NCBI GenBank assembly: GCA_900315145.1
Contig: OMYE01000009.1
Span: 1 to 64,000, forward strand
Source: an uncultured Pseudomonadota bacterium
GTDB taxonomy: Bacteria; Pseudomonadota; Gammaproteobacteria; Enterobacterales; Succinivibrionaceae
DNA: 64,000 nucleotides
Reading direction: 5' to 3'
Shown piece after piece: positions 24,232 through 35,923 of the stretch. Every line of letters starts with the position of its first letter. The stretch's first letter is position 1. The position numbers and the translations under genes are program-made. The notes beneath the pieces are model-generated. The model was not told the DNA's origin and searched no databases. It was given only the letters and a program-made list of their open reading frames with translations.

Positions 24232-24308
24232 TATAACCGTCCGGTATATTGGCAGTATGTCTGGTTTAATAGACCGCACGTCAGTATCCGGAGGATAGAT
24301 TAAGCAAT

Positions 24309-24345
24309 AAAGGATATCTTGAATAAAGGTATCCTTTTTTTTGTC
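24309..24345 (+). terminator. Terminator after purL
   Basis: AAAGGATA and TATCCTTT form an eight-base-pair stem around a 13-base loop and are followed by a run of T. Confidence 0.8.
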
Positions 24346-25119
24346 TTCATTATGTCTACCTGCTGTATCCGTCCCGGTAATATCTGATAATGATGCTAGC
24401 GGCGGTTTATGTCTGCTGTTTACACGTTCTGCAGCATTCTCTGAGAAGTCGGCCGGTTTCCGGAAAAGTCCTTTTTGTAACTGAAAGTTACATGTCTGCA
24501 TGCATGTCTTTATATTTGTATAAATACTCTGAATTCAAACATATGAACGGGAGTGCATGCTTTCTGTACCTTATTTATCCTTTTGTCTCTGAGGATGATG
24601 ATTCCAGGGGAGCGTAAGGAAGTGTGTTTATTATCACCCGTATGACTGCTGCTCAAGGTTTTTCTGGCCGGGAATTCATTTACGCCGGCGATTTACGAAG
24701 GCCGGGAGCTCTTTTTAACTGTTATACGAAGATGATTTATGCAGAAAAATAAATATTGACGATTATTTTCGGGGATAAAAAGGTTATTTCAGAGATTTTT
24801 AACATAATATACAGCCTTATTGCAGCAGATGGGATTCTGTTTTAAATGATGATATAAATAAATATTTATTAATTATGTTAATTATATGTTATAGAACAAA
24901 AAACGAACTAAAAAAGGAGGAAGTCTTACGGCTCTAAGATAGATAGTATGTTTTATGGTAATTATCTAGTTATCTGATAACTAACTTATAATTTATTGTA
25001 AGGCTTTCATATTTATGAAAGATTATTTCATGTATAAAAGATGTTAATAAGTGGTTAAACCATTAAATATTTGATATATATCTCAAAAAATAAGTGTTTT
25101 TAGAATAATATATGAGTAT
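24346..25119. other. AT-rich leader region before the peptide array
   Basis: About 770 bases without a confident gene. At 24694-24720 CCGGC pairs with GCCGG and leads into a short T-run, a possible terminator. A perfect Shine-Dalgarno AAGGAGG at 24914-24920 has no start codon at normal spacing; the nearest ATG (24948) opens only nine codons. A seven-base-pair hairpin (CTTTCAT/ATGAAAG) lies near 25004-25021, and the ten-codon frame MKDYFMYKRC starts at 25015. The region may hold another small RNA or leader. Confidence 0.4.
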
Positions 25120-25155
25120 ATGAAAATATTTTCATGAAAATGAAAATATTTTCAT
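25120..25155. promoter_or_regulatory. Tandem perfect palindromes, likely operator
   Basis: ATGAAAATATTTTCAT is a perfect 16-base palindrome present at 25120-25135 and again at 25140-25155, so the centres are 20 bp apart, about two helical turns. The pair lies 33 bases upstream of the -35 of the peptide-array promoter. The layout resembles the paired ARG boxes bound by ArgR (core TGAAT-N4-ATTCA), matching eight of the ten fixed positions per box, but another dimeric or hexameric regulator is equally possible. Confidence 0.65.
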
Positions 25156-25187
25156 GAAATTTTTTGAAAGTTTTTTAGTATTTTTTC

Positions 25188-25216
25188 TTGTAAAAGGTGA
25201 TAGATGTCACTATTAT
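25188..25216 (+). promoter_or_regulatory. Promoter of the peptide array
   Basis: TTGTAA at 25188-25193 and TATTAT at 25211-25216 are separated by exactly 17 bases. Transcription would begin near 25223 and leave a leader of about 90 bases before the first peptide ATG at 25312. Confidence 0.65.
25197..25210. promoter_or_regulatory. CRP-like half-site pair inside the promoter spacer
   Basis: GTGA-TAGATG-TCAC matches the core GTGA-N6-TCAC of CRP-type sites and lies between the -35 and -10 elements. A factor bound there would be expected to block RNA polymerase. The match is only to the core, so binding is speculative. Confidence 0.4.
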
Positions 25217-25311
25217 GTAATCAAGGTCAGGGAACAAAGAGACCGAAATAAAAAAATTAAATGATTAAAAATCAACAATATTTATATCAACACTATGGAA
25301 GGAAAACTGAT

Positions 25312-25392
25312 ATGAGATACATTATTAAGAAATTTGAAAGTCACGTATATGCTCCGGTAACTCGTGAATACCACTTTAACTACGTTAAGTAA
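25312..25392 (+). CDS. Array peptide 1 (26 residues)
   Basis: Reads MRYIIKKFESHVY, then the invariant APVTREYHF, then NYVK. It is the most divergent copy, with I4, I5 and F8. The site GGAAGG is nine bases before the ATG. An in-frame ATG at 25261 would give a 43-residue form (extension beginning MIKNQQYLYQ), but it has no ribosome-binding site and the other copies have no such extension. The peptide is basic and aromatic, with no cysteine, signal peptide or membrane segment. Its function is unknown. Confidence 0.75.
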   Translation: MRYIIKKFESHVYAPVTREYHFNYVK

Positions 25393-25439
25393 TAACAACG
25401 GAATTTGGTAACAGGCAAAAAACTTGAGAGGTAAGCAAA

Positions 25440-25520
25440 ATGAGATACTTAATGAAAAAGTTAGAAAGCCATGTATATGCTCCGGTAACTCGTGAATATC
25501 ACTTCAGTTACGTTAAGTAA
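25440..25520 (+). CDS. Array peptide 2 (26 residues)
   Basis: Reads MRYLMKKLESHVY, APVTREYHF, SYVK, which is also close to the consensus of all six. GAGAGG lies nine bases before the ATG. Compared with copy 3, seven codons differ and six of those changes are synonymous, which points to selection on the peptide. Function unknown. Confidence 0.78.
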   Translation: MRYLMKKLESHVYAPVTREYHFSYVK

Positions 25521-25570
25521 GAGCTAACTAAGTTAAATTCTGGAACAGTTAAGATTAAGAGGTAAATAAA

Positions 25571-25651
25571 ATGAGATACATAATGAAGAAGCTTGAAAGC
25601 CATGTATACGCCCCGGTAACCCGTGAATATCACTTCAGCTACGTTAAGTAA
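25571..25651 (+). CDS. Array peptide 3 (26 residues)
   Basis: Reads MRYIMKKLESHVY, APVTREYHF, SYVK. AAGAGG lies nine bases before the ATG. It differs from copy 2 by a single residue (I4 for L4) despite six silent codon changes. Function unknown. Confidence 0.78.
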   Translation: MRYIMKKLESHVYAPVTREYHFSYVK

Positions 25652-25708
25652 GTAAGAGCTGAACTAGGCCGGAATCTTAAGACATAGATTAAATCAGAGG
25701 TGACTAAA

Positions 25709-25789
25709 ATGAGATACTTAATGAAAAAGCTTGAAAACCATGCATTTGCTCCGGTAACTCGTGAATACCACTTCAGTTACGTTAAGTAA
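25709..25789 (+). CDS. Array peptide 4 (26 residues)
   Basis: Reads MRYLMKKLENHAF, APVTREYHF, SYVK. AGAGGTGACTAAA precedes the ATG. It is the only copy with Phe rather than Tyr at position 13, so an aromatic residue is kept before the core. Function unknown. Confidence 0.78.
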   Translation: MRYLMKKLENHAFAPVTREYHFSYVK

Positions 25790-25843
25790 AAATGCGGCGG
25801 TTAACCCTAATCTTTAGATACAGTTTAATGAGAGGTGACTAAA

Positions 25844-25924
25844 ATGAGATACTTAATGAAAAAGCTTGAAAACCATGCATACGCTCCGGTAACTCGTGAA
25901 TACCACTTCAGTTACGTTAAGTAA
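25844..25924 (+). CDS. Array peptide 5 (26 residues)
   Basis: Reads MRYLMKKLENHAY, APVTREYHF, SYVK and differs from copy 4 in one codon only. The same AGAGGTGACTAAA leader precedes the ATG, suggesting copies 4 and 5 arose by a recent tandem duplication. Function unknown. Confidence 0.78.
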   Translation: MRYLMKKLENHAYAPVTREYHFSYVK

Positions 25925-25973
25925 ATGCAGACAGTAATGCTGAACTTTAACCAAAGATAGAGAGGTGACTAAA

Positions 25974-26054
25974 ATGAGATACTTAATGAAAAAGATCGAA
26001 GACCGTGTATACGCTCCGGTAACTCGTGAATACCACTTCAATTACGTAAAGTAA
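25974..26054 (+). CDS. Array peptide 6 (26 residues)
   Basis: Reads MRYLMKKIEDRVY, APVTREYHF, NYVK. It varies most in the N-terminal half (I8, D10, R11) but keeps the core and the YVK end. AGAGGTGACTAAA precedes the ATG. A hairpin with a GAAA tetraloop (TGGTT/AACCA, 26062-26075) follows eight bases after the stop. Function unknown. Confidence 0.78.
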   Translation: MRYLMKKIEDRVYAPVTREYHFNYVK

Positions 26055-26139
26055 TTTGACATGGTTGAAAAACCACAATATGGTGCAAGGCCATAGCCTG
26101 AATAATAATAAAAATAATTTAACGCAGAAGGCATAATCC

Positions 26140-26178
26140 ATGTCATTGAGATTAAGTAGACAGAGCCGGACTGCATAA
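26140..26178 (+). CDS. Possible 12-residue basic mini-ORF
   Basis: ATG at 26140 opens MSLRLSRQSRTA. It has a GAAGG site eight bases upstream and lies within the same presumed transcript, between the sixth peptide and the proline-rich peptide. It is too short to be judged on codon use and could be a chance frame. Confidence 0.25.
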   Translation: MSLRLSRQSRTA

Positions 26179-26251
26179 AGCTAAGAATTACCTAAATCAC
26201 AGCATTATGCATCCGGTATTACAAAGAGTTTGATATTTGAGGTATTTTGCT

Positions 26252-26341
26252 ATGAACAAGAACAGAAATTTATATCCGCGACCTGAAATTCCACTGCCGA
26301 GTGAGTCGTCAAGAAAAAGAAGTATCGGCCCTAAAATCTAA
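26252..26341 (+). CDS. Cationic proline-rich 29-residue peptide
   Basis: The frame opens MNKNRN, continues LYPRPEIPLPSES and ends in SRKRSIGPKI. It has five prolines, seven Lys/Arg and two Glu, a composition that recalls proline-rich ribosome-targeting peptides, although no homology is claimed. GAGG lies nine bases before the ATG. The terminator begins 15 bases after the stop, so this ORF closes the peptide-array transcript. No signal sequence is visible. It may be a functional peptide, a precursor or a spurious frame. Confidence 0.5.
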   Translation: MNKNRNLYPRPEIPLPSESSRKRSIGPKI

Positions 26342-26355
26342 AAACAGAAAATACG

Positions 26356-26393
26356 CCCCCTGTGAGATGAAACACAGGGGGTTCGGTTTTTTT
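26356..26393 (+). terminator. Terminator of the peptide-array unit
   Basis: CCCCCTGTG and CACAGGGGG form a perfect nine-base-pair stem around AGATGAAA and are followed by TTCGG and seven T. It lies 15 bases after the 29-residue ORF. Confidence 0.9.
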
Positions 26394-26449
26394 GAAAAGT
26401 ATGATTTGGTTTCGTGTGCCCGGCGACGGATAGCGGATGGTTTACTGTA

Positions 26450-27496
26450 TTATTCAGTACTGCCCGTTTTTTTAGAACCGGGAGCTTTTTCCGGAAAAAT
26501 AATACTGGCGGTAACCCCTAAAGCTAAAATGACAGCAATTACGATTAAGCTGGTAATATTTCCTATCAGAAGACTGTTGAATCCGCCGATTTCACATCCG
26601 GCATTGAAACACAGTTTAAAGGCAATAAAGAACAGAAGCGTAATTACAGCCTTTTCCAGATGACAAAGGTATCTTTTAAGTGATTCCAGGATAAAATACA
26701 TGGATCTCAGTCCGAGTATGGCAAAAATCATGGCACTGTAGATAATAAGAGGTTCCTTGCTAACAGCAATAACCGCCGGTACGGAGTCAAATGCAAATGT
26801 CACATCGCTAAGCTCTATTACAGACAGGCATAAAAGAAGCGGGGTGCCGAAAAATAATCCGGTTCTTTTTAAGGAGATATTTTGGTTCTCCTCTTTCTCT
26901 GTCAATTCCCGGATCTTCTGTTTATTCAGGAAAAAGTAATGACCTTCCAGTTTTGGCCAGATAGGTAAAAGCCACTTGGTTAATCTGTATGCCGGATGAT
27001 TGGAGTAGTCTTCAATTTCGTCCTTGTCATCAGCGCTTTTTATCATGAGAACCGCTGTAACGGCCACCCAGATGCCAAAGACAATCTCCACCCACTGACC
27101 AAGAAGGTAAAGGAAGGTACTGCCGATGGCTACAAATATCGCTCTGAATACAATAGCCCCGATAATTCCGTAGTATAAAACCCGGTGTCTGTAGGCTTCA
27201 GGTATTTTAAACCAGGTGAATATGGCCATGAATACGAACAGGTTATCCACAGATAATGATTTTTCCAGAATATATCCGGTGAAAAAGAGAGAGGCCACTT
27301 CTACATTGTGATGGTACCAGAGATAAACGCCGAAGAGCACTGAAACCAGAATCCAGAAAATTGTCCAGATGCATGAGGTCCGGAATGTCATGATCGGATT
27401 TTTTCTGTGAGCAAGAAGGTCAATCAACAGGCATACAATTACTACAATAGTAAATATTATTATGGTGGATGTTTCAAAACCGATATGGGTATTCAT
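26450..27496 (-). CDS. TerC/Alx-family integral membrane protein
   Basis: A 348-residue protein with about nine hydrophobic segments and the TerC hallmark EKSLSVDNLFVF around residue 78. A second acidic membrane motif is ELSDVTFAFDSVPAV near 225. TerC/Alx proteins are linked to manganese or other metal export and to tellurite resistance, acting in the inner membrane. AGGAG lies upstream of the start at 27496. No yybP-ykoY riboswitch-like sequence was recognised upstream. It is convergent with the peptide array and divergent from ettA. Confidence 0.9.
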   Translation of the reverse strand: MNTHIGFETSTIIIFTIVVIVCLLIDLLAHRKNPIMTFRTSCIWTIFWILVSVLFGVYLWYHHNVEVASLFFTGYILEKSLSVDNLFVFMAIFTWFKIPEAYRHRVLYYGIIGAIVFRAIFVAIGSTFLYLLGQWVEIVFGIWVAVTAVLMIKSADDKDEIEDYSNHPAYRLTKWLLPIWPKLEGHYFFLNKQKIRELTEKEENQNISLKRTGLFFGTPLLLCLSVIELSDVTFAFDSVPAVIAVSKEPLIIYSAMIFAILGLRSMYFILESLKRYLCHLEKAVITLLFFIAFKLCFNAGCEIGGFNSLLIGNITSLIVIAVILALGVTASIIFPEKAPGSKKTGSTE

Positions 27497-27735
27497 GGAA
27501 AAAATCTCCTGTTTTGCTGATTCGGGAGTATGTCCGTTGTTTTATTGCCTGAATGAATCTCTTAATCTGAATAATCATGGAATGTTTATACGGCATAAAA
27601 CAGTGTGCAGACTTGAAGTAATCTATCACATAAATACGGAAGCAAAGAAGTACGACTGTTTTACTATGTAGAGTAGATCAGGGGTTTATGATAAAATAAC
27701 CCAAAATTCTATTGTTTAGCTAGTTTAGGAAAAAT

Positions 27736-29400
27736 ATGGCACAATTCATTTATACAATGAACCGCGTAGGCAAAATTGTTCCGCCTAAGCGTCAGATTTT
27801 AAAGGATATATCACTGTCATTTTTCCCGGGGGCCAAGATAGGTGTCCTGGGTTTAAATGGTGCCGGTAAATCCACTTTATTGAAAATAATGGCAGGTATT
27901 GATACTGAAATTGAAGGTGAGGCACGTCCGCAGCCCGGTATCAAGATTGGTTATTTACCTCAGGAGCCTCAGCTTGATCCTGAAAAAACAGTAAAAGAAA
28001 CTGTTGAAGAGGCCTTAGGTGAGGTTAAGCAGGCCCTAACCCGTCTTGACGAGGTGTATGCTGCATACGCAGATCCTGATGCCGACTTTGATGCTTTAGC
28101 TGCAGAACAGGCCAGACTCGAAGCTATAATTCAGGCAAGTGATGGTCATAATATTGATAATCAGATTGATCAGGCCGCAGATGCTTTAAGACTTCCTGAT
28201 CCGGATGCCAAGATTAAGGTGTTGTCAGGTGGTGAAAGAAGACGTGTGGCTCTCTGCCGTCTGCTCCTGGAACATCCTGATATGCTTCTCCTTGACGAAC
28301 CTACCAACCATCTTGATGCCGAATCTGTTGCATGGCTGGAAAGCTTCCTGCATCAGTACACAGGTACCGTTGTTGCTATTACTCACGACCGTTACTTCCT
28401 TGATAATGTAGCCGGTTGGATTTTGGAACTTGACCGCGGTGAAGGTATTCCTTGGGAAGGTAACTATTCTTCATGGCTTGAGCAGAAGGAAGCCCGTCTG
28501 GCTCATGAACAGGCATCTGAAAGCGCCCGTCAGAAGTCTATTCAGAAGGAACTTGAATGGGTTAGACAGTCTCCTAAAGGCAGACATGCCAAGTCAAAGG
28601 CAAGACTTGCCCGTTTTGAAGAACTTAATAGTACTGATTATCAGAAGCGTAATGAAACTAACGAACTGTTCATTCCGCCTGGGCCAAGACTTGGTGACAA
28701 GGTTCTTGAAGTCACCAACCTTACCAAGGGTTATGAGGGTAGAACCTTAATCAAAGATCTGAGCTTTACCGTACCTAAGGGGGCTATAGTAGGTATTATC
28801 GGGGCCAATGGTGCCGGTAAGTCTACACTGTTCCGTATGATAAGCGGATCTGAACAGCCTGATTCCGGTTCTATTACACTTGGTGAAACTGTAGTTGTTG
28901 CCAATGTTGAACAGTTCCGTGATAAGATGGATAACAAAAAGACTGTTTATGAGGAAATATCTCAGGGACAGGATATTCTTCGTATAGGTAATTATGAAAT
29001 TCCTAGCCGCGCATATATCGGCCGCTTTAATTTCAAGGGCACCGATCAGCAGAAGCGTGTAGGGGATTTATCAGGAGGTGAACGAGGCAGACTGCATCTT
29101 GCTAAGCTGCTGCAGGCGGGCGGTAATCTGTTGTTACTCGACGAACCGACAAACGATCTCGATGTAGAAACATTACGAGCTCTGGAAAATGCTCTTCTGG
29201 AATTCCCGGGATCTGCTATGGTTATTTCTCATGACCGCTGGTTCCTTGACCGTATTGCCACCCATATTCTGGATTATCAGGATGACGGAAAGATTACCTT
29301 CTTTGACGGAAACTTTACCGAATATGAGGAATGGAAGGTTAAGACCTATGGTGAAGAAGCTGTTAAACCTCATCGCCGTAAGTTCAGAAACATTTCATAA
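27736..29400 (+). CDS. ettA: Energy-dependent translational throttle protein EttA (ABC-F)
   Basis: EttA is an ABC-F ATPase that binds the ribosomal E site and gates entry into elongation according to the ATP/ADP ratio. Two ATPase domains carry Walker A GLNGAGKST and GANGAGKST, signatures LSGGERRR and LSGGERGR, and Walker B LLLDEPTNHLD and LLLDEPTNDLD. An Arm and linker lie between them. The protein has 554 residues and no membrane segments. The first residues MAQFIYTMNRVGK match the EttA subgroup. A terminator follows. Confidence 0.95.
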   Translation: MAQFIYTMNRVGKIVPPKRQILKDISLSFFPGAKIGVLGLNGAGKSTLLKIMAGIDTEIEGEARPQPGIKIGYLPQEPQLDPEKTVKETVEEALGEVKQALTRLDEVYAAYADPDADFDALAAEQARLEAIIQASDGHNIDNQIDQAADALRLPDPDAKIKVLSGGERRRVALCRLLLEHPDMLLLDEPTNHLDAESVAWLESFLHQYTGTVVAITHDRYFLDNVAGWILELDRGEGIPWEGNYSSWLEQKEARLAHEQASESARQKSIQKELEWVRQSPKGRHAKSKARLARFEELNSTDYQKRNETNELFIPPGPRLGDKVLEVTNLTKGYEGRTLIKDLSFTVPKGAIVGIIGANGAGKSTLFRMISGSEQPDSGSITLGETVVVANVEQFRDKMDNKKTVYEEISQGQDILRIGNYEIPSRAYIGRFNFKGTDQQKRVGDLSGGERGRLHLAKLLQAGGNLLLLDEPTNDLDVETLRALENALLEFPGSAMVISHDRWFLDRIATHILDYQDDGKITFFDGNFTEYEEWKVKTYGEEAVKPHRRKFRNIS

Positions 29401-35651: not shown

Positions 35652-35727
<76 letters not shown>

Positions 35728-35749
35728 AAACTTAAAGCTTATATTTGTT

Positions 35750-35825
<76 letters not shown>

Positions 35826-35847
35826 GAATCTGAAGCTTATATCTGAT

Positions 35848-35923
<76 letters not shown>

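Follow-up and report, generated by a model that had tools for sequence, protein, structure and literature searches.

The window, the whole 64,000-nucleotide stretch of DNA that we analyzed, carries six 26-codon open reading frames (ORFs) in tandem on the + strand (25312-26054). A purine-rich stretch precedes each of their start codons, bearing out the initial annotation, which had described six tandem genes for 26-residue peptides, each with its own ribosome-binding site. The array and the elements around it are listed below; the −35-like element and the two hairpins were read from the sequence.

25121..25134, unstranded: operator box 1, TGAAAATATTTTCA, a LacI-type even palindrome, its regulator a predicted one
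25141..25154, unstranded: operator box 2, of the same sequence as box 1, 20 bp from it centre to centre
25188..25193, + strand: −35-like TTGTAA, 17 bp before the −10
25196..25211, unstranded: CRP-like site GGTGATAGATGTCACT in the −35/−10 spacer, with 8/10 consensus positions
25211..25216, + strand: −10-like TATTAT, starting 90 bp downstream of the first base of box 1
25225..25244, + strand: putative small hairpin near the likely 5' end of the transcript, with GGA in its loop
25312..25392, + strand: peptide gene copy 1 (MRYIIKKFESHVYAPVTREYHFNYVK)
25440..25520, + strand: peptide gene copy 2
25571..25651, + strand: peptide gene copy 3
25709..25789, + strand: peptide gene copy 4
25844..25924, + strand: peptide gene copy 5
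25974..26054, + strand: peptide gene copy 6
26252..26341, + strand: seventh ORF, for an unrelated 29-residue peptide (..RPEIPLPSESSxKR..PKI), at the end of the array and kept in 4/4 Ruminobacter genomes
26356..26393, + strand: intrinsic terminator-like hairpin and T-run that closes the unit

The six starts (25312, 25440, 25571, 25709, 25844 and 25974) lie 128, 131, 138, 135 and 130 bp apart. Across the copies 18 of the 26 residues are invariant (positions 1-3, 6, 7, 9, 14-22 and 24-26), and a codon comparison of copies 2 and 3 gave differences at seven codons, six of them silent, both counts being those claimed initially. The peptides contain no cysteine, signal or long hydrophobic stretch. 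Counterparts of the seventh ORF, 27-29 codons long, occupy the equivalent position in the other three Ruminobacter genomes, and at array 1 of all four (4/4) this ORF is preceded by a conserved stretch with a possible hairpin (CCGG..TGC / GCA.CCGG; window 26140-26341). Hairpins comparable to that at the 5' end were seen by eye at other arrays. The same genome has a second unit in the prfA neighborhood (G000:C160:26783-27061, L074), with two divergent family peptides, one of the PPFTKAYNFSYVK subtype. Elsewhere in the window, three tRNA-Gly(GCC) genes stand in tandem (35652-35923).

With an E limit of 0.1, a profile built from 17 peptides matched 16 of the 56 Succinivibrionaceae genomes; with the weak G028 and G061 (internal stop) dropped, arrays or pairs of family genes are present in 14/56 genomes and 6/14 genera, with 2-12 matches each. 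Since the same peptides recur in these 14 genomes, it is confirmed that the window genes are not a chance pattern. The 2 to 12 gene copies of an array-bearing genome are mostly in tandem, in Ruminobacter (genus g1; other genera are cited by label) and its relatives, and one of the Ruminobacter arrays belongs to R. amylophilus DSM 1361. For 22 copies from four Ruminobacter genomes, the pooled pN/pS (Nei-Gojobori) was 0.25, with a codon bootstrap of 0.11-0.46; residues 2-13 gave 0.36 and residues 14-26 gave 0.075. Across the family peptides, too, the N-terminal half is variable and the tail conserved. The ratio across copies from several genomes is thus well below 1, and together with the recurrence of arrays in family genomes it supports the earlier proposal that purifying selection acts on the peptide and that the number of copies is kept high.

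The peptides had initially been described as having no known relatives, a statement that does not hold: besides the arrays in six Succinivibrionaceae genera, there are single-copy relatives in Aeromonas and in one further family. A strict DNA pattern matched 21 stretches in a genome collection of 84,980 species, all from Ruminobacter, Succinimonas or Succinivibrionaceae. A broader profile of 24 Succinivibrionaceae peptides, run on 295 genomes from the order with an E limit of 0.05, matched 31 of them, namely 7 of Succinivibrionaceae, 15 of f25/g47, 5 of family f20 and 4 of other families, the f25 and f20 figures being counts of matching genomes only. On reading the loci, we judged the four weak matches in other families (G146, G232, G260 and G086) to be chance. 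The names of f25-type sequences in a protein search identify f25 as Aeromonas. Outside Succinivibrionaceae, each of 20 genomes (15 f25, 5 f20) has one match, and in the 13 of these 20 places that we read it is a single ORF of 37-41 residues that ends, or nearly ends, in the tail A-P-x-T-[RK]-x-Y-x-F-x-[YW]. The signature of the family as a whole is P-x-T-[RK]-x-Y-x-F-x-Y. The protein search gave further relatives of 32-34 residues, some of those with 33-34 residues reading MKNLYLNLTTLL..APATRQYFFRY. A 43-residue reading of copy 1 exists as a protein-database entry without a name, on 72 contigs. In genus g5 the units pair two peptide subtypes, a typical member followed by a divergent KP[AYSL]T[RK]KYFFEY form (L098, L099, L101 and L104; alternating in L094).

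Even with E allowed to reach 10, three family peptides and the seventh ORF found no profile in Pfam, NCBIfam or PHROGs. The strict DNA pattern was without a match in viral contigs, as were the relatives, used as queries, in plasmids and phages, and the results of a literature search, taken by themselves, contained no report of the peptide family.

The paired box upstream of the array is closely associated with the family. At no more than one mismatch, paired TGAAAN4TTTCA occurs at 18 places in the 56 family genomes, all upstream of an array or family gene; in the window genome it occurs at only two places at up to two mismatches, both 5' of peptide genes. The distance from the start of the pair to the −10 is 89-91 bp in 22/22 readable array promoters (g1, g6, g7 and g9; at most two mismatches), a count that leaves out one g6 locus beside a run of N. 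The box centre is a YR step in 22 of 27 distinct sequences and CG in 5/27. LacI-family sites, as described in the portion of PMC4052901 consulted, are mostly even palindromes in which a central CG is usual, and because our box is an even palindrome with a mostly YR centre, we considered a LacI protein as its regulator. All eight Aeromonas loci that we read (8/8) have TGAAANNNNTTTCC at no more than one mismatch between −117 and −131, which suggests that the box is not confined to Succinivibrionaceae. Single WTGAAARTATTTTCAW boxes away from arrays were found in two Ruminobacter genomes, next to what looks by eye like a pyrI gene (L133/L134; G002:C80:16731 and G003:C12:7582), and in an array-less g8 genome (L130; G065:C1:1305842); the remaining matches lie at arrays.

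One GalR-like LacI protein, which we call LacI-A, has the same distribution as the boxes. It is present at 60% identity or more in 8/56 genomes, the best relatives elsewhere reaching at most 43%, and these eight genomes are exactly the eight with paired boxes. Among 24 genomes scanned for LacI-family proteins, the four of Ruminobacter have one each, those of g6, g7 and g9 two each, and four of g5 and one of g11 none; galactose genes were seen by eye next to the second LacI of g7. The LacI-A reading frame is interrupted in G008. Near the LacI-A gene, ung and a transglycosylase-like gene were seen by eye in four box-bearing genera among the loci listed. LacI-A has a LacI DNA-binding domain and full-length similarity to LacI-family regulators. 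Its nearest NCBIfam models are GalR and GalS (NF008002 and NF007706) and its nearest solved structure is CcpA; it nevertheless differs from GalR/GalS, scoring 287-323 bits against cut-offs of 555-557 (for GalR, 301, 323 and 322 bits in three members against a curated cut-off of 557), having no adjoining gal genes among the loci listed, and having paired boxes (at most one mismatch) only at peptide arrays. The link between LacI-A and the box is one of co-occurrence, and the genera concerned may share one history. Nor would LacI control be universal, since the g5 and g11 arrays have neither boxes nor LacI-A.

We consider it somewhat unlikely that a protein other than LacI-A reads the paired box. 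Binding of LacI-A to the box is a prediction, only 5 of the 27 distinct boxes have the central CG, and the promoter of the LacI-A gene has a perfect single box in 2/8 loci and a one-mismatch box in two more, all of which leave room for another protein. Against this, each of the four Ruminobacter genomes yielded a single LacI-family protein, LacI-A, and the obvious alternative, ArgR, has boxes of its own. These are of the type TGMATN4ATKCA, spaced 21 bp, and stand before argD-like and gltB-like genes (identified by eye in Ruminobacter and g5; L164, L165, L168, L172 and L173), with a related site before argR. The paired TGAAT/TGCAT, 21 bp apart, that marks the ArgR regulon is not what the arrays carry; their boxes read TGAAA and are 20 bp apart, and we rejected ArgR as the array regulator. 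ArgR exceeds its cut-off in 13/56 genomes, all of them in the six array-bearing genera; none of the remaining eight genera has it. Two array genomes (G027 and G019) are without ArgR, and in G023 it is present although no array was detected. This distribution is probably a clade effect. Because gene presence follows clades, with ArgR distributed almost like the arrays, the genome counts are not independent events.

A second kind of site lies at the promoter itself. CRP-like sites with at least 9/10 consensus positions are present in 11/29 array promoters, compared with a mean of 0.27 in dinucleotide shuffles, and in 13/13 loci outside Succinivibrionaceae, a score reached by 0.7% of mononucleotide shuffles. 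The best site falls into one of two geometries in 21/29 arrays and 13/13 outside loci, its centre lying 10-12 bp upstream of the −10 centre in one and 16-17 bp downstream of it in the other. The first, spacer geometry is that of 10 arrays (array 1 in 3/4 Ruminobacter genomes, one in g7 and six of seven in g9) and of five f20 loci. That of the window site thus recurs in nine other arrays and, within 2 bp, in the five f20 loci; for array 1 of the fourth Ruminobacter genome (L075) a tied neighboring match was reported, and the same spacer site is readable there. The second geometry is that of 11 arrays (array 3 of the four Ruminobacter genomes, six in g5 and one in g11) and of the eight Aeromonas loci. 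Four arrays in total, three at Ruminobacter recN loci and the one of g6, have a weak site (7/10). CRP bound at either geometry would block polymerase. A Crp-type domain was found in 10/10 genomes searched, and a CRP with the recognition helix GCSRETVGRIL at 7/12 loci fetched (five array-bearing and two array-less genomes), no protein being read at the other five. TGTAATN3ATTACA, which we take to be HexR-like, occurs at no more than one mismatch in 13/42 promoters compared with 0.2 in mononucleotide shuffles; of the 42 scanned, the window, g5 and g11 arrays had no such site.

These results describe a new, unannotated microprotein family that is amplified in arrays, under selection and tied to carbon supply by its promoters, which give the clearest pointer to its role. 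Annotation easily misses small proteins; here, selection, amplification and a co-occurring regulator agree in direction. We see about an even chance that the product is an intracellular, carbon-controlled microprotein, amplified at the gene level, that acts on central carbon metabolism and works like VcdP. The six genes would then yield one microprotein that probably stays inside the cell, its many gene copies probably being retained for dosage. Cyclic AMP-CRP is predicted to repress the arrays by covering the promoter, so that peptide would be made when sugar is plentiful. LacI-A would bind the paired boxes, centred near −95 and −75, and probably activates from this upstream position. As sugar-sensing regulators probably act at the promoter sites, we predict that the peptides adjust central carbon metabolism: their synthesis would follow sugar supply, and they would bind an enzyme or regulator of these pathways, in the way that citrate synthase is bound by VcdP. 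Docking on a protein partner encoded elsewhere would be through the basic, aromatic tail (P-x-T-[RK]-x-Y-x-F-x-Y), and tandem duplication may raise the amount of peptide far enough to titrate an abundant partner. More tentatively, it is possible that a GalR-like regulator is dedicated to the arrays of this one family, with a sugar signal setting the dose of a 26-residue enzyme effector through a set of near-identical genes; a small-protein system that is widespread in Gammaproteobacteria, and present as one copy in Aeromonas, would in rumen bacteria have been amplified into a tunable metabolic rheostat.

The partner could instead lie outside carbon metabolism (the ribosome, RNA polymerase or the envelope), carbon control being incidental to growth state, which we think unlikely. 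A basic aromatic tail suits many partners, and the link to carbon is made through the promoters only. Citrate synthase is a suggestion drawn from analogy with VcdP, and a 371-residue part of E. coli GltA, used as a query in a search run without a positive control, had no match in the roughly 1.39 Mb of about 2.5 Mb (about 55%) of Ruminobacter G001 that was covered, nor, again without a positive control, in the other loci fetched; this argues mildly against that target and leaves more room for a partner of another kind. What speaks for carbon metabolism is the convergence of CRP-like, LacI-type and HexR-like sites on these promoters, not all of them on each. Should a central enzyme prove to be the target, the arrays would let control of metabolism through peptide dosage be tested directly in rumen bacteria.

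That the transcript is the main agent, a regulatory or dual-function RNA that the peptide genes mainly shape or stabilize, is quite unlikely in our judgment. The f20 relatives do resemble a dual-function RNA in their C6 run and terminator, the Ruminobacter array ends in a conserved stretch and the seventh ORF, and 5' hairpins with GGA loops are visible by eye. However, replacements are far less tolerated than silent changes (pN/pS of the tail, 0.075), and Rfam had no match in the window from 24232 to 26700 and matched only tRNAs at nine of the thirteen outside loci.

The surroundings of the arrays bear on the remaining question of export. We clustered the ORFs around arrays in 35 sequences and read the clusters common to at least two genera; at 19 loci, neighbors within 3.8 kb were also read by eye. 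Recurrent neighbors were mainly housekeeping synteny: purL in Ruminobacter and Succinimonas, the prfA neighborhood in g1 and g7, and recN in g1 and g6. The adjoining maturase, protease or exporter gene by which a RiPP or exported bacteriocin is recognized was not found in the 35 sequences or, by eye, at the 19 loci: no maturase, protease-exporter or immunity gene was among the shared clusters of the former, and none was noticed within 3.8 kb at the latter. This supports the initial observation that no maturation or membrane-export gene adjoins the window array, none recurring beside arrays in these sets. Directly beside that array (26450-29400) are an Alx/TerC-type membrane protein gene (− strand) and EttA (+ strand). 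ABC-type ATPase genes do lie 1-3 kb from arrays in g1 and g5. Of the three that we checked, the one in the window encodes the translation factor EttA (993 bits against a cut-off of 599) and those at two g5 loci encode ModF (591 and 572 bits against 459); none has the membrane parts of an exporter, and we rejected them in that role. Nor did we count as a recurrent maturation or export gene that of a secreted subtilase-like protein; it is near arrays in g1 and g9, but on different sides. By eye, secreted, lipoprotein-like proteins of pullulanase-like or subtilase-like type lie within a few kilobases at G002:C47 (L080), G002:C76 (L079), G011:C1 (L090) and G021:C131 (L093). The arrays look like stand-alone units that act in trans.

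A secreted peptide (a leaderless bacteriocin, pheromone or modified-peptide precursor, with tandem copies raising the yield) is accordingly very unlikely: the short, basic, near-identical copies with a variable N-terminal half and a conserved tail, and the ATPase genes 1-3 kb away in g1 and g5, would suit one, but the ATPases checked are EttA and ModF, the shared clusters and the 19 loci hold no maturase, protease-exporter or immunity gene, Pfam, NCBIfam and PHROGs give no match, the arrays stay beside purL, prfA and recN across genera, the promoter sites are of the carbon-control type, and the window peptides lack cysteine, signal and long hydrophobic stretch. Of the roles initially listed, nothing found favors the secreted or modified precursor; the dosage-dependent small protein is the option that survives, with promoter sites of carbon type now added to it.

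The carbon-controlled intracellular microprotein that we favor has its closest described counterpart in VcdRP of Vibrio cholerae, a CRP-repressed transcript encoding the 29-residue VcdP, which binds and activates citrate synthase GltA; in the published description, counting from the first base of the stop codon, a four-cytosine seed occupies 32-41 nt and the RNA extends to 115 nt (PMC8672173). Compared by description only, the family shares with VcdP a protein of about 26-40 residues, a short transcript and a CRP-type site over the promoter, the last seen at 13/13 outside loci, in 11/29 arrays at 9/10 or better and in the window at 8/10. In the f20 relatives, counted from the first base of the stop codon, a C6 run starts at 41-42 nt in 4/5 loci and a terminator-like T-run starts at 105-113 nt in 5/5, which may parallel the seed and the end described for VcdRP. 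No Vibrionaceae match was recognized among the order-wide profile matches (295 genomes). Unlike VcdRP in that account, Succinivibrionaceae have 2-12 copies, mostly in arrays, and four genera have the added paired LacI-type operator; nor did we notice a cytosine seed in Succinivibrionaceae, the only such run of the window array lying, by eye, inside the terminator stem.

Two small proteins of Escherichia coli, also taken from the description in PMC8672173, stand further off. AzuC, a small CRP-repressed protein reported to raise GlpD activity, resembles the family as a predicted CRP-repressed small protein with a role in carbon metabolism, and it is described there as one locus. SgrT, a small protein that acts in the control of sugar stress and whose gene adjoins a regulatory RNA segment, differs as described in being an inhibitor of the PtsG transporter under the control of SgrR. 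Set beside these systems, one microprotein family, marked by a strict sequence signature, extends from Aeromonas to the Succinivibrionaceae of the rumen, its promoter hinting at when the peptide is made, and in Succinivibrionaceae the arrays give the impression of a VcdRP-type system whose protein part has been amplified.
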